A stretch of DNA of 64,000 nucleotides, from NCBI RefSeq assembly GCF_001905145.1, contig NZ_LWLB01000033.1, positions 186,001 through 250,000 of the forward strand, given 5' to 3'. Shown piece by piece: positions 31,704 to 43,601 of the stretch. The notes beneath the pieces were generated by a model, which did not search any database, had not been told where the DNA came from, and saw nothing but the letters and a program-made list of their open reading frames with translations. Every line of letters begins with the position of its first letter. Within the stretch, counting starts at the first letter, position 1. This stretch comes from Nocardiopsis sp. TSRI0078. Its GTDB lineage: Bacteria; Actinomycetota; Actinomycetes; Streptosporangiales; Streptosporangiaceae. The position numbers were made by a program, and so were the translations under genes.

Positions 31704-32053
31704 CGACATGTTCACCGGCCCCGGGGGGTAGGTGGTGGCCCATGTACGCAGTCACCGATCACCGCAATCTGGCTATAACAGTAGGTAATCACCATGTAAC
31801 GGTGTCGGTCCTGTTTCCGGGGTCGAAAGCCAGTAGCCTGGGCAGCGAGCGGGGCTGGGACAACGTGGTCCGAAGCCCCGCGTTCCGACGGCCTGTGCGC
31901 ACAGGCCCATTCCCAACCGCCATGCCGGTGGGTTCCTTGCGGCCCAAGGAACTCACACGAAATAACACGACAGCACACGAGTTCACAGGTCACGTGACCG
32001 TTCGTTCTGCCAGTGCGCGTGCGACGTTGCTCACAAAGGAGTGAGAGATCCCT
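31704..32053. promoter_or_regulatory. 350-base promoter and leader of the glutamate dehydrogenase gene
   Basis: No gene seen. It holds three GTAAC-like words at 31775-31800 (listed separately) and a perfect 18-bp palindrome GGCCTGTGCGCACAGGCC at 31890-31907. A hairpin GTTCCTTG/CAAGGAAC spans 31932-31952. AAAGGAGTGAGAG precedes the ATG with a somewhat long spacing. Confidence 0.55.
31775..31800 (+). promoter_or_regulatory. GTAAC-type direct repeats, candidate GlnR or MtrA site
   Basis: ATAAC (31775-31779), GTAAT (31785-31789) and GTAAC (31796-31800) recur at 10- to 11-base intervals, one helical turn, in an AT-richer patch upstream of the glutamate dehydrogenase gene. Actinobacterial GlnR boxes are described as gTnAc-n6-GaAAc, and MtrA has been reported to bind similar words. 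The match is partial. Confidence 0.4.
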
Positions 32054-35000
32054 ATGTCCGGGCAATCCGACGTCCATCTCCAGAAGCTGCTCAGCGACGC
32101 GGCCGCCAAGTGGTCCCCGGGGGCGCGCATCAGCCCCGAGGAGGCCGACGCGGTCCGGCGCTTCCTCCCCGTCTACTACCGCCACACGGACCCTGAGGAG
32201 ATCAGCGGCCGTGCCCCGGAGCAGATCTGCGGACCCGCCGAGGCCCACCTCGCCTTCGGCGCCCACCGCGCCCCCGGAAGGGCCAAGGTCCGCGTCTACA
32301 CCCCCGACGCCGAGCGGAACGGCTGGGACCAGCAGACCAGCGTCCTGGAGATCGTCACCGACAACGCCCCCTTCCTCGTCTCCTCCGTCACCATGGCCCT
32401 CGCCGACCTCGGTGCCGGAGTCCGGCTGATCGTCCACCCGCAGATGACCGTCGGCCGCGACCTGGGCGGGCGCCTGTGCCAGGTCGACCCCGAGGTCGGC
32501 GGCGAGGACCTGCTGCCCATCGACGAGTCCTGGATCCACATCGAGATCGATCCGCAGTCCGATCCCGGACGCTTCGAGGAGATCGCCGCCCGCGTGGAGA
32601 GCGTCCTGGCCGACGTGCGCTACGTGGACGAGGACGCCGCCAAGATGAGCGACCGGGCCATCCGGATCGCGGACGAGCTGGCCGCCTACCCCGACCGCCT
32701 CGTGGCCGGGGGAGTGGACCCGCGCGAGATCGGCGAGAGCGTCGACTTCCTGCGCTGGACCGCCGGACGCCACTTCACCTTCATGGGCTACCGCGAGTAC
32801 AGCCTGGTCACCGACGAGAACGGCGACGACTCCCTGCGCCCGGAGCCCGGCTCCGGCCTCGGCATCCTGCGGATGGACTCGCCCGCCTCCACCAGCTTCG
32901 CCGCCCTGCCCCCCGAGATCCGCGCCAAGGCGCGCGAGCCCTACGTCCTCGTGCTGACCAAGGCCAACTCGCGCGCGACCGTCTACCGCCCCAAGTACCT
33001 GGACTACGTGGGCGTCAAGAAGTTCGACGCCCAGGGCAACATCGTCGGAGAGCGCCGCTTCCTCGGCCTGTTCACCTCCCAGGCCAACACCACCAGCATC
33101 TCCCAGATCCCCATCATGCGCCGCAAGCAGGCCGAGGTGCTGGCCCTGGCCGGGTTCGAGGCCGACAGCTACGACGGCAGGGACCTCGTCGAGCTCCTGG
33201 AGACCTTCCCCCGCGAGGAGCTCCTGCAGATCCCCGTGGGCGAGCTGTACAACATCGTGCGGGGGGTCCTGCGCCTGCGCGGCCGCCGCGGCACCAAGCT
33301 GTTCATGCGCCGCGACCCCTACGGCGGCCGGTACATGTCGTGCTTCGTGTACATGCCGCGCGACCAGTACAGCACCCGGGTGCGCCTGGACATCCAGGAC
33401 GTCCTCGCCGACGCCTTCAAGGGCGCGACCATGGACCACAACGTGCTGATCGGCTCCGCGCCGCTCGCCCGCCTGTACCTGGTGGCGCGGGCCCGGCACG
33501 GGCAGACCCTCGCCGACATCGACCAGGTCGCCCTGGAGGAGAAGGTCCGCCAGGCCGCCCGCTCGTGGGACGCGGACTTCGACGAGGCCCTCACCGGGGC
33601 CTTCGGTCCCATGCGCGCCACCGAGCTCAAGGACCGCTACTCCGACGGCCTGAACGAGGCCTACAAGGTCGACAACAGCCCCGCGACCGCGGCCGCCGAC
33701 ATCGGTCAGCTGGAGAGGCTCCTCAGCAGGACCGATCCCGAGCGGCGGCACGGCGAGTTCTCGGCCGTCCTGTACCAGCGCGAGGACGCCGAGCCCGGCT
33801 GCTACCGGTTCCGCCTCTACCGGATCGGGGAGCCCGTCTCGCTCTCGCGCGTCCTGCCCGTCCTGGAGAACCTGGGCGTGGAGGTCGTCGACGAGTGGCC
33901 CTACGACATGACCGTCCAGGACGTGGGCCGGGTGTGGGTCTACGACTTCGGCCTCGGCCCGATCCCCGGCTCCGACCTGGCGCCCGAACGCCTCAAGGCC
34001 CTGTTCGAGGAGGCCTTCGACGCCTCCTGGCGCGACCTCGGCGAGAGCGACCGGTTCAACGCCCTGGTGGTGCGCGCGGGGCTCGACTGGCGCCAGCTCA
34101 CCGTGCTGCGCGCCTACGCCAAGTACCTGCGCCAGACCGGTTCCACGTTCACGCCCGAGTACCTGGCCGACGTCCTGACCGCCAACGTGGGCATCGCCAA
34201 CCTGCTGGTCGAGCTGTTCGAGACCCGGTTCGACCCCGACCAGCCCGACGAGGGCCGCGACGACCGCACCGGCGTCCTCGTCCGCAAGATCGAGGGTGAG
34301 CTGGAGGCCGTGGCCAGCCTGGACCACGACCGCATCCTGCGCTCGTTCCTGGCGGTCATCCGAGCCACCCTGCGTACCAACCACTACCAGGGCCACCCCT
34401 ACCTGGTGCTCAAGCTCAACCCGCAGGAGATCCCGGACCTGCCGCACCCGCGGCCCCGGTACGAGATGTACGTGTACTCCCCGCGCGTGGAGGGCGTGCA
34501 CCTGCGCTTCGGCGCCGTCGCACGCGGCGGGCTGCGCTGGTCGGATCGCCTGGAGGACTTCCGCACCGAGATCCTGGGCCTGGTCAAGGCCCAGATGGTG
34601 AAGAACTCCGTCATCGTCCCCAGCGGCGCCAAGGGCGGCTTCGTGTGCAAGCGGCTGCCCCAGAACGGCACCCGCGAGGAGGTGATGGCCGAGGTCGTGG
34701 CCTGCTACAAGCAGTTCGTCAGCGGCCTGCTGGACGTCACCGACAACCTCGTGGACGGCGAGACCGTCCACCCCGAGCGCACCGTCCTGCACGACGGCGA
34801 CGACTCCTACCTCGTGGTCGCCGCCGACAAGGGCACCGCCACCCTCTCCGACACCGCCAACGCCATCTCCACCGAGCGCGGCTTCTGGCTCGGCGACGCC
34901 TTCGCCTCCGGCGGCTCGGTCGGCTACGACCACAAGGCGATGGGCATCACCGCGCGCGGCGCCTGGGAGTCGGTCCGGTACCACTTCCGGGAGATGGGCG

Positions 35001-36922
35001 TGAACGTGCAGGAGGAGCCGTTCACCGTCGTCGGCGTCGGCGACATGTCCGGTGACGTGTTCGGGAACGGGATGCTGCTGTCCCGGCAGATCCGGCTGAT
35101 CGCGGCCTTCGACCACCGCCACGTCTTCCTCGACCCGGACCCGGACCCGCACACCTCCTGGGTGGAGCGCAAGCGGGTGTTCGACCTGCCCCGCAGCACG
35201 TGGGAGGACTACGACCCGAAGCTGATCTCCGAGGGCGGCGGCGTGCACCCGCGCACCGCCAAGTCCGTGCCGGTCACCCCGCAGGTGCGCGAGGCGCTCG
35301 GCATCGAGGAGGGCGTGGAGGCCCTCACCCCGGACGAGCTGATCCGGTGCGTGCTCACGGCCCCCGTCGACCTGCTGTGGAACGGCGGCATCGGCACCTA
35401 CGTCAAGGCCAGTACCGAGACGCACGCCGACGTGGGCGACAAGGCCAACGACCAGTTGCGCGTGGACGCCTCCGACCTGCGCGTCAAGGTGGTCGGTGAG
35501 GGCGGCAACCTGGGGCTGACCCAGCCCGCGCGGATCGAGTTCGCGCGCGAGGGCGGCCGGGTCAACACCGACTTCATCGACAACTCCGCCGGTGTGGACA
35601 CCTCCGACCACGAGGTCAACATCAAGATCATGCTGGACCGCGAGGTGCGGGCCGGGACGCTGGACAAGGACGACCGCGACCAGCTGTTCATCGACATGAC
35701 CGACGAGGTCGCCGACCTGGTACTGGACAACAACTACGCGCAGAACACCGCGCTGGCCGCCTCGCGCAAGCAGGACACCCAGATGCTGCACGTCCACGGC
35801 CGGTACATGCGGCACCTGGAGCGCACCAAGGTCCTCAAGCGCAAGCAGGAGGACCTGCCCTCCGACAAGGCGATCGCGGAGCGGCGCGCGGCGGGCGGGG
35901 GGCTGACCAGCCCGGAGTTCGCCACCCTGCTGTCGTACACCAAGATCAGCCTCAAGGAGGAGATCGGCCTGTCCGACCTGGCCGACGACCCCTACCTGGC
36001 CGACACGCTGACCGGGTACTTCCCGACGCCGCTGCGGTCGGAGCGCTTCGCCCCGGGCGTGGCCTCGCACCCGCTGCGCCGGGAGATCATCGTCAACCAG
36101 GTCGTCAACCACATGGTCAACCACTCGGGGGTGACCTTCGCGTTCCGGCTCAACGAGGAGCTGGGCGCCAACGCGGCCGACATCGCCCGCGCCTACCTGG
36201 TGGTGCAGGACGTGCTGGGGCTGCGCCGGTTCTGGGGCCGGGTGGAGGAGCTGAACCACGAGGTCTCGGTGGACAGCCAGCTCGCCCTGCTGCTGGAGAC
36301 GCGCAAGCTCGCCGAGCGCTCCGCCCGGTGGCTGCTGCGCAACCGCACCTTCCCCTTCGACATCAGCAGCGAGATCGGCTACTTCGCCGAGGGCGTGGGC
36401 GAGGTGCTGCCGCGGCTGGTCCAGCTGCTGCGGGGCCGTGACCGGGAGGCCTTCGTCGAGCGCCGCGACCGCTACACGTCGATGGGCGTGCCGACCGATC
36501 TGGCCGAGCAGGTGGCCGTGATGGTGCCCGCCTACTCCACGCTGGACCTGGTGGAGATCGCCCACCGCACCGGGCGCCCGGTGGAGCAGGTCGCCGAGCT
36601 CTACTTCGAGCTGGCCGACCGGCTCAACATCAGCTGGTGGCGCGAGCGGATCATCGACCTGCCGCGGGACGACCGCTGGGCCACCACGGCGCGGGCCTCG
36701 CTGCGCGACGACCTGTACGCGGCGCACGCCGACCTGACGGCCCGGGTGCTGGAGAGCGGCCCGGCGGAGGCTCCCCCGGAGCTGATCGCCGAGTGGCTCG
36801 ACCAGAACCGGGACCGGGTGGAGCGCGCCGGGATCACCCTGTCGGAGATCCAGGAGAACGAGCGGTTCGACCTGGCCACCCTGTCGGTGGCGCTGCGGGC
36901 CTTCCGCGGGCTGGTGGACTGA
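32054..36922 (+). CDS. NAD-specific glutamate dehydrogenase, large (180-kDa) class
   Basis: This 1622-residue enzyme belongs to the large NAD-GDH family first described in Streptomyces. It converts glutamate to 2-oxoglutarate and ammonia, mainly catabolically. The N-terminal third holds ACT-like regulatory modules (LEIVTDNAPFLVSSVTMAL). The catalytic core lies around 800-1250, including LRWSDRLEDFRTEILGLVKA, VPSGAKGGFVCK with the active-site Lys, FVVGVGDMSGDVFGNGM-like VVGVGDMSGDVFGNGM, GEGGNLGLTQPARIEFA and NTDFIDNSAGVDTSDHEVN. The C-terminal helical domain completes the normal length. It is monocistronic, flanked by a long leader with GTAAC repeats and a strong terminator. Upstream elements suggest nitrogen control. 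No frameshift was seen. Confidence 0.97.
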   Translation: MSGQSDVHLQKLLSDAAAKWSPGARISPEEADAVRRFLPVYYRHTDPEEISGRAPEQICGPAEAHLAFGAHRAPGRAKVRVYTPDAERNGWDQQTSVLEIVTDNAPFLVSSVTMALADLGAGVRLIVHPQMTVGRDLGGRLCQVDPEVGGEDLLPIDESWIHIEIDPQSDPGRFEEIAARVESVLADVRYVDEDAAKMSDRAIRIADELAAYPDRLVAGGVDPREIGESVDFLRWTAGRHFTFMGYREYSLVTDENGDDSLRPEPGSGLGILRMDSPASTSFAALPPEIRAKAREPYVLVLTKANSRATVYRPKYLDYVGVKKFDAQGNIVGERRFLGLFTSQANTTSISQIPIMRRKQAEVLALAGFEADSYDGRDLVELLETFPREELLQIPVGELYNIVRGVLRLRGRRGTKLFMRRDPYGGRYMSCFVYMPRDQYSTRVRLDIQDVLADAFKGATMDHNVLIGSAPLARLYLVARARHGQTLADIDQVALEEKVRQAARSWDADFDEALTGAFGPMRATELKDRYSDGLNEAYKVDNSPATAAADIGQLERLLSRTDPERRHGEFSAVLYQREDAEPGCYRFRLYRIGEPVSLSRVLPVLENLGVEVVDEWPYDMTVQDVGRVWVYDFGLGPIPGSDLAPERLKALFEEAFDASWRDLGESDRFNALVVRAGLDWRQLTVLRAYAKYLRQTGSTFTPEYLADVLTANVGIANLLVELFETRFDPDQPDEGRDDRTGVLVRKIEGELEAVASLDHDRILRSFLAVIRATLRTNHYQGHPYLVLKLNPQEIPDLPHPRPRYEMYVYSPRVEGVHLRFGAVARGGLRWSDRLEDFRTEILGLVKAQMVKNSVIVPSGAKGGFVCKRLPQNGTREEVMAEVVACYKQFVSGLLDVTDNLVDGETVHPERTVLHDGDDSYLVVAADKGTATLSDTANAISTERGFWLGDAFASGGSVGYDHKAMGITARGAWESVRYHFREMGVNVQEEPFTVVGVGDMSGDVFGNGMLLSRQIRLIAAFDHRHVFLDPDPDPHTSWVERKRVFDLPRSTWEDYDPKLISEGGGVHPRTAKSVPVTPQVREALGIEEGVEALTPDELIRCVLTAPVDLLWNGGIGTYVKASTETHADVGDKANDQLRVDASDLRVKVVGEGGNLGLTQPARIEFAREGGRVNTDFIDNSAGVDTSDHEVNIKIMLDREVRAGTLDKDDRDQLFIDMTDEVADLVLDNNYAQNTALAASRKQDTQMLHVHGRYMRHLERTKVLKRKQEDLPSDKAIAERRAAGGGLTSPEFATLLSYTKISLKEEIGLSDLADDPYLADTLTGYFPTPLRSERFAPGVASHPLRREIIVNQVVNHMVNHSGVTFAFRLNEELGANAADIARAYLVVQDVLGLRRFWGRVEELNHEVSVDSQLALLLETRKLAERSARWLLRNRTFPFDISSEIGYFAEGVGEVLPRLVQLLRGRDREAFVERRDRYTSMGVPTDLAEQVAVMVPAYSTLDLVEIAHRTGRPVEQVAELYFELADRLNISWWRERIIDLPRDDRWATTARASLRDDLYAAHADLTARVLESGPAEAPPELIAEWLDQNRDRVERAGITLSEIQENERFDLATLSVALRAFRGLVD

Positions 36923-36951
36923 GCCCGGCCGCCCACGGCGGCGGACACCAG

Positions 36952-36995
36952 GCACACGGGTTCCCCGCGCGCACTCGCGCGGGGAACCCGTGTGC
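36952..36995 (+). terminator. Terminator of the glutamate dehydrogenase gene
   Basis: A perfect 19-bp stem: GCACACGGGTTCCCCGCGC at 36952-36970 pairs with 36977-36995 across a 6-base loop, followed by GTTTG. It ends only 23 bases before the prfB start. Confidence 0.9.
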
Positions 36996-37018
36996 GTTTG
37001 GCCCCTACACTGGGGTCC

Positions 37019-38137
<1,119 letters not shown>

Positions 38138-38603
38138 GGCGACCGGACGGTGCCCTCCGAGGCCCCCGTCGCGCTCCGGCCCGGGTCCGGGCTCCCCGGG
38201 GGCGGGAGCCCCCGGCGCCCGGACCGCACTCCCGGGGGCCGGGTGGGCGTCCGCCGCGCAGATCCCGACGTTGCGGGCCGCGTACGGTGACACGCCCGGT
38301 CGTACGGCGCGTACCAGGAGTGATGCACGCGGGGCGCATGCGGAGGTTGTATCCCAATGGTGATGATCACGACTCCGCAGTTTTACCGAAAATGCTATAT
38401 GTGAACGTTATCATCGGTTGACACCTCCGATATGCTCGTGGCTGCTGTCCGATAGGGCACTGATCCGCGGGGCGTGACGCGACTTGGACAATCCGGGCCG
38501 CTCCCCCCTCTAAACTGTCGGTTGGCCATGCGGCCGGTACGATCCCGCGCGGAGAGCCCTCCACGGCGGGTGCCCATACCTTCGAGAACCTTGTGATGCG
38601 CCT
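38138..38603 (+). promoter_or_regulatory. 466-base region upstream of ftsE
   Basis: No gene is seen. GGGCTCCC (38189-38196) pairs with GGGAGCCC (38204-38211) as a possible prfB terminator. From 38370 the sequence turns AT-rich and contains the promoter candidate at 38408-38436. The ftsE start is about 165 bases further on, so the leader would be long. Confidence 0.5.
38408..38436 (+). promoter_or_regulatory. Candidate sigma-70-type promoter for ftsEX
   Basis: TTATCA (38408-38413) and TATGCT (38431-38436) are 17 bases apart and lie in the AT-rich island of the ftsE upstream region. A perfect TTGACA at 38418 has no matching -10 at the right distance. Confidence 0.4.
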
Positions 38604-39293
38604 GTGATCCACTTCGATAACGTCACCAAGGTCTACCCGACCCAGAAGCGCCCCGCGCTCGACGGCGTTTCCATTGACGTAGACAAGGGCGAGTTCGTCT
38701 TCCTCGTCGGCCCGTCCGGCTCCGGAAAGTCGACCTTCCTCCGCTTGGTGCTCAAGGAGGAGAAGCCCGACAAGGGGCGCGTCAACGTCGCCGGCAAGGA
38801 CCTGGCGCGCCTGTCCAACTGGAAGGTGCCGCACCTGCGCCGCCGTATCGGCTGTGTCTTCCAGGACTTCCGCCTGCTGCCGAACAAGAACGTCTTCGAG
38901 AACGTCGCCTTCGCCCTGGAGGTCATCGGCAAGCCCCGGCGCTTCATCAAGAGGGTCGTACCCGAGGTCGTCGAGCTCGTCGGCCTGGAGGGCAAGGCCG
39001 GACGCATGCCCCACGAGCTCTCCGGTGGCGAGCAGCAGCGCGTGGCCATCGCCCGCGCCTTCGTCAACCGCCCGCAGATCCTGCTGGCCGACGAGCCCAC
39101 CGGAAACATCGACCCCGCGACCTCCATCGGCATCATGAAGGTGCTGGACCGAATCAACCGCACGGGCACCACAGTCGTCATGGCGACCCACGATGCCGCC
39201 ATCGTCGACTCGATGCGTAAGCGCGTGATCGAGCTTGAAGAGGGCCTGGTAGTGCGCGACCAGACGCGCGGCGTCTACGGCCAGGCGTACTGA
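38604..39293 (+). CDS. ftsE: FtsE, cell-division ABC ATPase
   Basis: This 229-residue ABC ATPase has Walker [11 protein letters not shown] (35-44), Q-loop VFQDFRLL, signature LSGGEQQRV (139-147), Walker [10 protein letters not shown] (158-166) and switch His in [10 protein letters not shown]. FtsE pairs with FtsX at the division or growth site and, by ATP-driven conformational change, activates peptidoglycan hydrolases. The GTG start at 38604 gives [12 protein letters not shown], the standard N-terminus. ftsX begins 57 bases downstream. Its upstream spacer contains the only visible promoter of the cluster. Confidence 0.97.
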
Positions 39294-39350: not shown

Positions 39351-40262
39351 ATGCGAGCACAATTCGTTCTCTCCGAGACGTGGATCGGCCTTCGCCGAAA
39401 CCTGACGATGACCATCGCCGTCATCACGACGGTGGCCATCTCACTGACCCTGTTCGGCGCCGGTCTGCTGGTCAACCAGCAGGTTTCCGAGATGCGCAGC
39501 TACTGGGACGAGCGGATCACGCTCACCATCTACATGTGCACCGACATCTCGCCGACCCAGGTCTGCCAGGAGAACGGTGCGGCCACCGAAGCGGACCGTG
39601 AGTCCCTCGAAGGCACCCTGAACGGCCTGAACGAGGTCGCGAGCTTCGACTACCTCACCGCGGCCGAGGCCTGGCAGGACTTCCAGGACCGGTTGGGCTC
39701 CTCCAACGAGGCGCTGGCCAACGCCGCGCAGGAGGGCGACATCCCGGACAACTACCGGGTCCAGCTCACCGACCCGGCCCACTACGACACCGTGCGCAAC
39801 GCGGTCGAGGGCGCTCCGGGTGTGGACACGGTCTCCGACGACCAGCGTGTGCTCGAACAGTTCTTCGGTCTGCTGGACGGTCTGCGTGCGGCCGCGCTGG
39901 TGCTCGCGGGCGTCCAGCTGGCCGCCGCCGCGCTGCTGATCGGCAACACCATCCGGCTGTCGGCCTACAGCCGCCGCCGGGAGACCGGCATCATGCGCCT
40001 GGTCGGTGCGTCGAACTTCTACATCCAGCTCCCCTTCCTGCTGGAGGGCGCGGTCGCGGGTCTCATCGGTGGTCTGATCGCCTCCGGGTTCATCGTGGCG
40101 ACCCGGTACACGCTGCTCACGCAGATCGAGGACTGGTTCCAGTTCGACGTGGCCCTGGGCACGGGATCGCTGCTGTACGTCATCGGCGTGTCGGTGATCC
40201 TCGGCGTCCTGCTGTGTACCATCACCTCGTTCCTCACCCTGCGCCGCTACCTCAAGATCTGA
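39351..40262 (+). CDS. ftsX: FtsX, cell-division membrane protein
   Basis: This 303-residue permease-like partner of FtsE has a first membrane helix near 21-43 (TMTIAVITTVAISLTLFGAG). The extracellular loop of about 120 residues contains a cysteine pair (MCTDISPTQVCQ) typical of actinobacterial FtsX. Three helices follow in the C-terminal half (from about 177, ALVLAGVQLAAAALLIGNTI, to VILGVLLCTITSFLTL), with the ETGIMRLVGASNFYIQLPF coupling helix. It transmits ATP hydrolysis by FtsE to extracytoplasmic wall hydrolases. smpB starts 73 bases later. A dedicated hydrolase or protease gene between ftsX and smpB, found in some relatives, is absent here. Confidence 0.96.
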   Translation: MRAQFVLSETWIGLRRNLTMTIAVITTVAISLTLFGAGLLVNQQVSEMRSYWDERITLTIYMCTDISPTQVCQENGAATEADRESLEGTLNGLNEVASFDYLTAAEAWQDFQDRLGSSNEALANAAQEGDIPDNYRVQLTDPAHYDTVRNAVEGAPGVDTVSDDQRVLEQFFGLLDGLRAAALVLAGVQLAAAALLIGNTIRLSAYSRRRETGIMRLVGASNFYIQLPFLLEGAVAGLIGGLIASGFIVATRYTLLTQIEDWFQFDVALGTGSLLYVIGVSVILGVLLCTITSFLTLRRYLKI

Positions 40263-40335: not shown

Positions 40336-40800
40336 GTGGCACGGGAAACCGGGCGCAAGCTCATCGCGCAGAATCGGCGGGCCCGGCACGACTACCACCT
40401 CGACGAGACCTACGAGGCGGGCCTCGTCCTCACCGGTACCGAGGTCAAGTCGCTCCGACAGGGCCGCGCCTCCCTCGTGGACGGGTTCGCCCACATCAGC
40501 GACGGCGAGGTGTGGCTGGAGAACGTGCACATCCCGGAGTACTCACAGGGAACGTGGACGAACCACTCCGCCCGACGATCGCGTAAGCTACTCCTGCACC
40601 GCGAGCAGATCTCCCGGCTGATCGGCAAGACCCGAGAGCCCGGCCGCACGCTCGTCCCGCTGTCCCTGTACTTCAGCGACGGACGCGCCAAGGTCGAGAT
40701 CGCTCTGGCCCGCGGTAAGCGCGAGTACGACAAGCGCCACGACATCGCCGAGCGCGAGGCGAAGCGGGACATTGAACGCGCGCTCCGCCGCCGTCGATGA
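40336..40800 (+). CDS. smpB: SmpB, tmRNA-binding protein
   Basis: This 154-residue protein is complete: [39 protein letters not shown] and [20 protein letters not shown], and the C-terminal [21 protein letters not shown] tail that enters the mRNA channel. SmpB binds tmRNA and is essential for trans-translation, which rescues stalled ribosomes. The GTG start at 40336 has AAGGGACA upstream. Its RNA partner, ssrA, lies 2.4 kb downstream on the same strand with only the PBP-like lipoprotein between them. Confidence 0.97.
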
Positions 40801-40823: not shown

Positions 40824-42812
40824 GTGTCCCCCCGTCCCCTTGGCCGGCTCACGGCCGCCGGCAGCGGCCTGCTCCTCGCCGCGACCCTGGCCGCGTGCAC
40901 ACCGCATCCCAGTCCCGAGGTGGCGGTCAGGTCCTTCCTGCTCGCCTGGCAGGACGGGAACCACGCGGAGGCCGCCACCTACACCGACGGCGATCCCGAG
41001 CAGGTGGCGGCGGCGCTCACCGACATGCGCGAGCAGCTCGACCTGGCGTCCCTGCGGTTCGACCTGGGACCGATCTCCCGTGAGGGCGAATCCGCCGACG
41101 CCGAGTTCGGGGTGCACGCCGACCTCGGTATCGGCGACCCGACCTGGAACTACACCGGTCGCATGCCCCTGGAGTGGGGCCCCGACGGCTGGCGGATCTC
41201 CTGGTCGACGAGCGTCCTGCACCCCGACCTGAGCGAGGACGAGCGGCTCGCGATCAGCTACGAGAGCCAGGAGCGCGGCCAGATCCTCGACCGTGAGGGC
41301 GAGCCCCTGGTCACCGCCGACAGCGTGACGGCCTTCGGCGTCCTGCCCGGCGAGATGGAGGACAAGGAAGCGGGGGTCACCCAGCTCGCCGAACTCCTGG
41401 ACGAGGACCCCGACCCGCTGCTGAACCGGGTGCGCTCGGCGCCGCCCGAGCAGTTCCAGCCGCTCGTGCTCCTGCGCGGTTCCAGCGTGGACGGGAAGCT
41501 GCTCAGCGAGGCGGGCGGTATCTCCGGCGTGGACACGCGGGAGGTCGAGGTCAACATGACGCCGTCGGTGGCGCCGTTCCTCCTGGGCGAGGTCGCGGGC
41601 ACCGCCGAGCACAGGGTGTCCTCCCGGGTCCCGGGCCCCTACCGGGCGGGTGACACCGTCGGCCTGAGCGGGCTGCAGAACATCTTCCAGCACGAGCTGG
41701 CCGGTTCGGGCACCACGCAGGTCGTCTCCCTGGACCGGGCCGGCGGGATCACCGACGTCCTGGAGGCCTGGGAGGGCGAGCGCAGCGGCGTCATCGGCAC
41801 CACCCTGGACATCGAGGTGCAGCGGGCCGCGGAGAACGCCCTGCAGGCGCTGCCCGGGGACGGGTACCTGGTCGCGGTGGACACCGCCAGCGGTGAGATC
41901 CTGTCCGCCGCCAGCGCCTCCGGCAACACCGCCGACGACAACGCGTTCACCGGCTCCTACGTACCGGGAGGCGCCTTCACCCCGGTCTCCACCCTGGCCG
42001 CCCTGGAGTCGGGCGCGGCCGGGCCGGACGACGTGGTGCCCTGCGGCTACTCGACCGAGATCGGCGGGCGGACCTTCGTCAATCCGAGCTCCGGTTTCCT
42101 GTCCGGTCAGCCGGACCTGGCCCGCAACCTGGCCTTCAGCTGCAACGTCGGGTTCGCCGACCTGTCCGCCGACGTGGGCCGGGACGCCGTCGCCGCGGCC
42201 GCCGAGCACCTGGGGATCGGCGCCGAGTGGCAGCTGCCGGTCCCGGCGTCCTCGGGGACGGTCTCCATCGGCGGCGAGGACGTGGACGTGGCCTCGGCGA
42301 TGATCGGCGAGCACGGCGTGCGCGTGAGCCCGCTGTCGATGGCGCTGGCGACGGCGGCGATCGCGGACGGTACCTGGCACGCGCCGACCCTGGTGCCCGA
42401 GGAGGGGCCGGCCCCGGACAGTGAGACGACCCTGGACGAGACCCGCCTGGAGGTGGTCCGCGAGGGGATGCGCGACGCGGTGGCCAACCGGATGCCCCAG
42501 CTGCTCGCCACCGGGGGAGAGGTGTACGGGCAGGCGGCCCGCACCGAGCAGGACGGTACCGCCCTGCACTGGTTCGTCGGCTACAAGGACGGCGTCGCCT
42601 TCGCCGTGCTGGCCGAGGTGGACCCGGAGATGACCCAGTGGTCGCAGTACGCGGTGGACGCCGCGGGCACCTTCCTGGCCTCGATGGCCAACGGCGTGCC
42701 CGCCGGGGAGAGCGGTCCCACGCCGGAGGAGTCGGCCGCTCCGCCCAACGAGGCCGACCTGACCGGCGGCGAGGGGATCGGGGGAACGGACGCCCAGGGG
42801 ACCGGCTGGTAG
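40824..42812 (+). CDS. PBP-like lipoprotein with degenerate transpeptidase active site
   Basis: This is a 662-residue lipoprotein with signal peptide and lipobox LAAC. An NTF2-like domain (VRSFLLAWQDGNHAEAATYT) is followed by a PBP dimerisation region (ISYESQERGQILDREGEPL) and a transpeptidase-like domain (about 330-640). The fold is class B PBP/MecA-like, but the active site has lost its signature. The SxxK position reads YVPGGAFTPVSTLAALE, with no Ser or Lys where YPPGSTFK is expected. The KTG motif reads QAARTEQDG. Only SCN (FSCNVGFADLS) is kept. It cannot work as a normal transpeptidase and probably binds wall or division partners. GTG 40824 has AAAGGA upstream; ATG 40797 has none. It follows smpB by 23 bases. 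Confidence 0.9.
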   Translation: MSPRPLGRLTAAGSGLLLAATLAACTPHPSPEVAVRSFLLAWQDGNHAEAATYTDGDPEQVAAALTDMREQLDLASLRFDLGPISREGESADAEFGVHADLGIGDPTWNYTGRMPLEWGPDGWRISWSTSVLHPDLSEDERLAISYESQERGQILDREGEPLVTADSVTAFGVLPGEMEDKEAGVTQLAELLDEDPDPLLNRVRSAPPEQFQPLVLLRGSSVDGKLLSEAGGISGVDTREVEVNMTPSVAPFLLGEVAGTAEHRVSSRVPGPYRAGDTVGLSGLQNIFQHELAGSGTTQVVSLDRAGGITDVLEAWEGERSGVIGTTLDIEVQRAAENALQALPGDGYLVAVDTASGEILSAASASGNTADDNAFTGSYVPGGAFTPVSTLAALESGAAGPDDVVPCGYSTEIGGRTFVNPSSGFLSGQPDLARNLAFSCNVGFADLSADVGRDAVAAAAEHLGIGAEWQLPVPASSGTVSIGGEDVDVASAMIGEHGVRVSPLSMALATAAIADGTWHAPTLVPEEGPAPDSETTLDETRLEVVREGMRDAVANRMPQLLATGGEVYGQAARTEQDGTALHWFVGYKDGVAFAVLAEVDPEMTQWSQYAVDAAGTFLASMANGVPAGESGPTPEESAAPPNEADLTGGEGIGGTDAQGTGW

Positions 42813-42869
42813 CGGTCCGACCACCGGTCGAAGGCCCACACGGGCCGTTCCTTCGACCGATCGGGAAAA

Positions 42870-42906
42870 GGGCGGGTCCCCGGGGCAACCCTCCGGGGAC
42901 CCGCCC
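42870..42906 (+). terminator. Terminator after the PBP-like gene
   Basis: A perfect 14-bp stem: GGGCGGGTCCCCGG (42870-42883) pairs with 42893-42906 across a 9-base loop, then GCGTCTTCCCC. It closes the ftsEX-smpB-PBP unit. Confidence 0.85.
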
Positions 42907-43227
42907 GCGTCTTCCCCTATGACTGGGCCGCGACAGGGGGTAGCGGACCAGCGAGAGGCAGGACCTCATCTCGGGGGAGATCCTGTCGTTTCCCAAGGTC
43001 GGCCCGACCCTGCCGACCGCCCCCGCGGGCCGCGTCGACCACCTCTTGAGTCCGCGCCCGCGGGGGTTTCTCCCTGTTCGGGGAGGCGGGAGTGATTCTT
43101 TTCCCCGGCAGGGAATCAGCTTGGCCCCCGTACTGTTCAACAGGTAGAGTGACGAACGCGCAAGCGGTTCGCCGCTAGCATGCCGGCCGCTCCGCCCGCC
43201 AGACGGGGAGGCCGTGACAACTCCACA
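42907..43227 (+). promoter_or_regulatory. Upstream region of the tmRNA gene
   Basis: No gene seen. A promoter with TTGGCC (43121-43126) and TAGAGT (43145-43150), spacing 18, should start a precursor near 43157, about 70 bases before the mature tmRNA. Upstream sequence holds GC-rich imperfect hairpins only. Confidence 0.55.
43121..43150 (+). promoter_or_regulatory. Candidate ssrA promoter
   Basis: TTGGCC (43121-43126) and TAGAGT (43145-43150), 18 bases apart, in an AT-richer stretch directly upstream of the tmRNA. Confidence 0.5.
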
Positions 43228-43596
43228 GGGGGTGATCGGTTTCGACTTCGGTAGTCGTTCCAGGGGAAGCGGGTCGAGGGTTGCGTTTGTGACCTCGTTA
43301 ATCCTGCATTCGCGTAAACACAAGTGCCAATTCCAAGCGCACTGAGTTCGCTCTCGCTGCCTAAGCGATAGCGTCTCTGTCGGCCTGGGCTCGTCATCGG
43401 CCCAGGTACCGGCATCAGCTAGATGACTTACCGCTCAGATCAGGCCACGGGGCCTGAGCGGGACATTCACGTGGCTGGGCCTGTCAGCGATGTGTCCGTG
43501 CAAGCGCTGGGGCCGAGTAGAACGACAGCGCGGACTGCACCCGGAGAAGCCCTGGCTCGGTGCTGAAGGACGCGGGTTCGATTCCCGCCACCTCCA
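43228..43596 (+). ncRNA. ssrA: Transfer-messenger RNA (tmRNA)
   Basis: The RNA rescues stalled ribosomes with SmpB. Its tRNA-like ends pair: GGGGGTG (43228-43234) with CACCTCC (43589-43595), and A43596 as discriminator. GATCGGTTTCGAC follows the 5' end, as in all tmRNAs, and the T-arm GCGGGTTCGATTCCCGC lies at 43572-43588. The resume codon GCC at 43326 opens the tag ANSKRTEFALAA, ending in TAA at 43362-43364; the ALAA end is the ClpXP-type degron. The 3' CCA is not encoded (ACGAG follows), so it must be added. Several pseudoknot-forming GC stretches fill 43370-43550. The mature length would be 369 bases plus CCA. The tag equals the one I remember for Thermobifida fusca. Confidence 0.97.
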
Positions 43597-43601
43597 CGAG
43601 A

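Follow-up and report, generated by a model that had tools for sequence, protein, structure and literature searches.

A catalytically dead class B penicillin-binding protein homolog conserved downstream of smpB in actinomycetes, putatively a non-catalytic adaptor or sensor of wall synthesis

We found that a gene at positions 40824 to 42812 (+ strand) of a Nocardiopsis sp. TSRI0078 contig encodes a 662-aa lipoprotein built like a class B penicillin-binding protein (PBP), and that the loss of its catalytic residues is fixed, confined to a single clade and accompanied by purifying selection. All positions refer to the window, i.e., the whole stretch of 64,000 nucleotides that was analyzed. We conclude that this MecA_N-type class B PBP became a fixed pseudoenzyme long ago, and we regard it, with moderate confidence, as a putative non-catalytic adaptor or sensor of wall synthesis. 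With a PBP homolog fixed as dead across a whole family, nature has run the experiment of uncoupling what class B PBPs do as scaffolds from what they catalyze, and the outcome singles out the NTF2-like domain as important when catalysis has been lost. The protein also passes the Pfam cutoff for the transpeptidase domain, and domain-based annotation would therefore count it as penicillin binding, although covalent binding is not expected.

Domain architecture and gene neighborhood

The open reading frame begins with a GTG codon preceded by the sequence GAAAGGA; an alternative ATG start at 40797 would overlap the smpB stop codon. A lipobox, LAAC, was read in the translation at 40887 to 40898 (+), and its cysteine (Cys25) is aligned in 88% of the dead orthologs (n = 113). 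Pfam assigned three domains to the protein, all above their gathering cutoffs: MecA_N (residues 31 to 139), PBP_dimer (residues 150 to 311) and Transpeptidase (residues 347 to 595). The first, an NTF2-like domain at 40914 to 41240 (+), scored 27.4 bits against a cutoff of 22.0 and also exceeded that cutoff in all eight further dead orthologs scanned. It is followed by the PBP_dimer (pedestal) domain at 41271 to 41756 (+) and by the transpeptidase fold at 41841 to 42623 (+), the latter delimited by the alignment (residues 340 to 600).

Within the transpeptidase fold, the former SxxK site (41964 to 41981, +) reads PGGAFT in the context YVPGGAFTPVS, with GAFT in place of SxxK, and the former KTG site (42531 to 42539, +) reads QAA in the context VYGQAARTE. 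These readings, together with the lipobox and the three Pfam domains, confirm the proposal of an earlier note on this DNA that the gene encodes a PBP-shaped lipoprotein without SxxK or KTG. The same note had listed SCN as retained. This holds for the window protein, where the SxN site is SCN (42138 to 42146, +) and includes Cys440, but not for the clade, where just 7 of 173 dead orthologs retain both Ser and Asn. Cys440 and a second cysteine, Cys407 (42042 to 42044, +), are present in all 140 aligned rows. Cys407 is probably the disulfide partner of Cys440, and the invariance of the two residues suggests that the transpeptidase fold has been kept.

The PBP_dimer and Transpeptidase domains behind an N-terminal membrane anchor place the protein among the class B PBPs, and among the features of a functional enzyme it has the SxN motif and lacks SxxK and KTG. 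Judged from these sequence features, its ancestry is that of the MecA_N-type class B PBPs, but it is not a functional PBP. Nine proteins with a Transpeptidase domain were found in its own genome; since the other eight keep both SxxK and KTG, the window protein is the only dead one. The order MecA_N, PBP_dimer, Transpeptidase is the same as in other MecA_N-type class B PBPs (PBP2a/MecA, Enterococcus PBP5 and PBP3), from which the window protein differs in that SxxK and KTG are missing. Among PDB sequences, it matched best to 7bn9, annotated as Penicillin-binding protein 3 (E = 1e-28), and to chains of PBP5/PBP2a. All 17 NCBIfam matches fell far below their cutoffs, the best being pbp2_mrdA with 138 of 455 bits.

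The neighbors named in the earlier note, ftsEX, smpB and ssrA, were all located around the gene. Upstream and on the same strand (+) lie ftsE, encoding the ABC ATPase (38604 to 39293), ftsX (39351 to 40262) and smpB (40336 to 40800), each of them an open reading frame whose place is conserved in relatives. FtsE is 71 to 97% identical and in the same place in those relatives whose fetched stretch extends that far, and orthologs of ftsX also occupy the same place. Among the 164 fetched loci of the window's family (f1) and its sister family (f2), smpB lies at most 1.5 kb upstream on the same strand in 162, the remaining two loci being at contig ends. No more than 150 bases separate smpB from the PBP-like gene in 140 of these 162. 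Downstream lies the tmRNA gene ssrA (43228 to 43597, +), with the tag ANSKRTEFALAA. Between the two genes, a strong GC hairpin follows the stop codon (42870 to 42906, +; z score of -6.2 for 42813 to 42930); it is a possible transcript end ahead of ssrA, although it has no T run and is absent from the terminator scan output. The promoter and terminator scan returned no promoter and one terminator-like site, against 1.6 expected.

Other features of the region were noted, with gene identities recognized by eye. A release factor 2 (prfB)-like frame lies directly upstream of ftsE (36992 to 38137, +). An open frame of 2,193 codons (31712 to 38293, -) runs antisense to a long NAD-glutamate dehydrogenase-like gene (32054 to 36922) and is most likely a by-product of the high G+C content rather than a gene. 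Seven loci (L034, L105, L107, L108, L116, L141 and L144), but not the window, contain an extra gene of about 390 to 410 codons between ftsX and smpB that resembles an S41 C-terminal processing protease.

Catalytic motifs are lost in a single clade under purifying selection

To follow the motifs across orthologs, we collected 178 distinct proteins encoded at most 1.5 kb downstream of smpB. The SxxK lysine is lost in 173 of them and kept in 5. In the 173, it is replaced by Ser (72), Thr (65), Gly (34), Gln (1) or Ala (1), and the serine of the motif is still present in 14. The KTG lysine is kept in none of the 171 dead orthologs that could be read at this site (the other two are cut by contig ends); its replacements, Gln (86), Val (61), Ile (19), Leu (3) and Ala (2), vary by subclade, being mainly Gln or Val/Ile. 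In Nocardiopsis, both motifs are absent from all 33 full-length orthologs first aligned. A 90% identical protein occurs in N. quinghaiensis, and the genome of the window groups with Nocardiopsis in the order Streptosporangiales. The soil strains Streptomonospora nanhaiensis and Nocardiopsis terrae also carry the gene. The locus L075 (NYMS01000012.1), recorded as Glycomyces fuscus TRM 49117, is 80% identical to that of the window and is probably misnamed.

The gene itself is nearly universal in the family, being found (E ≤ 1e-40) in 198 of 200 genomes and 67 of 68 genera. Assembly gaps seem to explain the two misses, since in one genome (G114) the contig ends 195 bases past the smpB match and the other (G162) has no smpB match either. 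Motif sites were examined in loci that represent 67 of the 68 sampled genera (tallied by hand), and the dead orthologs span these 67 genera and one genome of the sister family (L034), which has SVFQ and GLAG at the two sites. No ortholog with intact motifs was found in any family locus that we read; such copies were confined to other families and lie outside the dead clade. This leaves recent decay or sequence error, which orthologs with intact SxxK and KTG would have favored, without support from the family loci read.

The five intact smpB-linked orthologs belong to other families: L035 to L037 to family f3, of the same order, L040 to f9 and L205 to f37. They form a small outgroup that shares the conserved gene place. 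All five lie in the same place after smpB and differ from the window protein in having STFK, SCN and KTG intact; ftsX was also seen in L035 to L037 and L040, and in L205 smpB alone was seen. L037 has the same domains as the window protein. In a tree of 95 rows (quick method, midpoint root, no bootstrap), the 64 dead rows fall on one side of a single branch (SH-aLRT support of 100; stem length of 0.48). Active relatives that share its domain order join the dead clade in this tree, which makes it MecA_N type by descent. Next to it, with a support of 91, stand intact copies from other families within the class, and the intact f3 copies fall outside both; this position conflicts with the expectation from kinship within the order and may be due to the long stem.

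The simplest reading of the gene place and the tree is that an active class B PBP gene would first have joined the ftsE-ftsX-smpB group, and that the SxxK and KTG lysines would then have been lost, apparently once, before the window's family and its sister family split, the protein having been kept dead since. Since the gene already occupied this place before the loss, its location does not account for the dead state.

Selection has nevertheless maintained the gene. Across 27 close pairs (25 of dead orthologs), the median dN/dS was 0.28 overall and 0.20, 0.21 and 0.24 for the NTF2-like, pedestal and transpeptidase domains, respectively, with values of 0.12 to 0.59, all well below 1, in the 25 dead pairs. 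The contrast between domains is weak at this depth: dN/dS was higher in the transpeptidase than in the NTF2-like domain in 15 of the 25 dead pairs and lower in 10, with examples in either direction (0.53 and 0.03, respectively, for L001-L002; 0.24 and 0.47 for L059-L062). Clade-wide loss of the catalytic residues combined with purifying selection is what defines a pseudoenzyme, and the description of the protein as such in the earlier note is upheld by the loss in all family loci read and by these dN/dS values.

Two alternatives bear on this description. That the window gene is merely decaying, or a sequencing error, has a negligible probability. Draft genomes do contain a few broken or truncated orthologs (e.g., G021 and G024), but open frames of 622 to 730 codons are present in 162 of the 164 fetched loci, with the two shorter ones at contig ends, and this, together with the clade-wide loss and the dN/dS values, rules out recent decay or sequence error. 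The persistence of the gene in almost all family genomes argues in the same direction. It is also very improbable, if less so, that the protein is still an enzyme that uses other residues of the transpeptidase fold. This domain is retained under purifying selection, and some orthologs have a serine at the SxxK position, yet no alternative nucleophile and base stand out among its conserved residues. Only four polar or charged transpeptidase residues reach 85% conservation among the dead rows, namely Ser502 (of SPL), Arg550 and the two cysteines; of these, Ser502 and the cysteines also occur in all 27 active relatives and Arg550 in 15 of the 27. Moreover, the two lysines are never kept, and the KTG lysine has been replaced differently in different subclades. 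Because both lysines are absent and the SxxK serine is mostly absent, no acyl-enzyme is expected, and from PBP chemistry the protein should neither cross-link the wall nor bind penicillin covalently in the usual manner.

The G021 ortholog (G021:C75:136836-138751) appears as two overlapping frames, reflecting either a frameshift or an assembly error.

Conservation of the NTF2-like domain

Over long divergence times, the best-conserved domain is the transpeptidase domain in active relatives and the NTF2-like domain in the dead clade. For pairs with a pedestal identity of 0.30 to 0.40, the mean identity of the NTF2-like domain was 0.45 between dead proteins and 0.27 to 0.29 between active ones, whereas that of the transpeptidase domain was 0.37 between dead and 0.46 to 0.48 between active proteins. 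As a control for time depth, we compared the dead protein with the active paralog from the same 24 genomes (276 pairs). The identities of the NTF2-like and transpeptidase domains were 0.51 and 0.43 in the dead protein, compared to 0.40 and 0.54 in the active paralog. The NTF2-like domain was the more conserved of the two in 267 of 276 dead pairs and in 2 of 276 active pairs, although genome pairs are not independent and the paralog alignment is less certain in the NTF2-like part. The pattern was the same within one paralog type (8 genomes; 27 of 28 dead pairs versus 0 of 28 active pairs) and within the other (16 genomes; 112 of 120 versus 1 of 120).

We then located positions specific to the dead clade, defined as those at which 85% or more of the dead rows agree on a residue that at most 5 of the 27 active rows share. 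Nine of them fall within residues 30 to 144 (including Gln43, Asp73, Asp100 and Gly102), three in the pedestal (including Ser205 and Leu214), one in the linker (Trp316) and two in the transpeptidase domain. Taken over long times, these alignments plainly show that it is now the NTF2-like domain, and no longer the transpeptidase domain, on which constraint is strongest. Searched alone against PDB sequences, the NTF2-like domain gave nothing beyond a single match with an E value of 1.9. What this domain does in the PBP2a/PBP5 group, which is of clinical importance, is not well understood.

Putative role in septal wall synthesis and relation to active paralogs

The retained fold, the lipid anchor and the shifted constraint argue for a binding role centered on the NTF2-like domain and the pedestal, and our best inference is that the protein serves septal wall synthesis as an adaptor or sensor that does no catalysis. 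The earlier note had suggested that it scaffolds or senses wall synthesis; the pseudoenzyme part of that interpretation is strongly supported, and the role stays putative. The protein would most likely be held at the external surface of the membrane by its lipid anchor, with the NTF2-like domain and pedestal making the important contacts and the transpeptidase fold serving as a structural platform or as a non-catalytic surface that binds the wall or a partner. In this position, it might tune either septal wall synthesis (by FtsI/FtsW or the active paralog) or the opening of the wall by partners of FtsEX. The gene place suggests a role in division but is older than the loss, and gene order alone suggests a link to FtsX.

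We compared distances in the PBP-like protein with those in FtsX across 105 of 113 dead loci, using SmpB as a control. The partial correlations with FtsX (outer part and rest, respectively) were 0.43 and 0.64 for the NTF2-like domain, 0.59 and 0.76 for the pedestal and 0.56 and 0.52 for the transpeptidase domain. Shared ancestry dominates these values, and the NTF2-like domain correlated no better than the other domains. We put forward only tentatively the more specific idea that the whole actinomycete family uses a dedicated, naturally dead PBP as a lipid-anchored adaptor that links FtsEX to the wall synthases, with the NTF2-like domain as its working part. If true, this would be a natural, fixed counterpart of the non-catalytic division role seen with an engineered mutant of Bacillus subtilis. 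In that species, a PBP 2B mutant without catalytic activity still allows division, so that PBP 2B acts structurally within the division complex; PBP 3 then becomes essential and supplies the chemistry (PMC5656894). The mutant is likewise a non-catalytic division PBP and serves as a precedent; it differs in being a laboratory mutant of an active enzyme, whereas the window protein belongs to a naturally fixed dead family.

The mycobacterial PBP-lipo (Rv2864c/MAB_3167c) is, by its description, likewise an actinobacterial class B PBP that is called a lipoprotein, and it takes part in septal wall synthesis (PMC9170245). However, Mycobacterium abscessus PBP-lipo requires its catalytic serine for function (PMC9170245), and non-catalytic scaffolding is thus not general among actinobacterial PBP lipoproteins. 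A published table for Streptomyces lists single beta-lactamase-like proteins that lack active-site motifs (PMC6273383). Our searches of the open-licence PMC literature listed no description of a dead PBP family, or of a dead PBP in this gene neighborhood.

A different possibility, which we consider doubtful, is that the protein is the dead partner of an active MecA_N-type PBP encoded elsewhere, or a sensor of wall precursors or beta-lactams, and functionally unconnected to FtsEX. Of 31 family genomes, 27 contain another PBP that outscored the dead copy as a match to the L048 query, and 23 of the 26 such PBPs fetched from the family show SxxK and KTG by pattern. An active MecA_N-type paralog (L047/L250) is also present in the window's own genome, and no second such protein appeared in the three f3 genomes with an intact linked copy. 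Against this, the best match of the active-paralog query was the dead copy itself in 4 of the 31 genomes (G083, G195, G236 and G061), G061 having a weaker second match of uncertain kind, and strict pairing of dead and active proteins thus fails in these four. In the 27 others, the second PBP could supply catalysis, and the paralog data would fit a handover of catalysis to the paralog. Tuning of wall synthesis by a lipid-anchored, non-catalytic adaptor or sensor remains our preferred reading.

Among the paralogs, two second copies from family f15 (L042 in G052 and L221 in G284) have TAFK for STFK and TTG for KTG, with SCN kept. They apparently represent an independent, partial loss that affects the catalytic serine and the KTG lysine.
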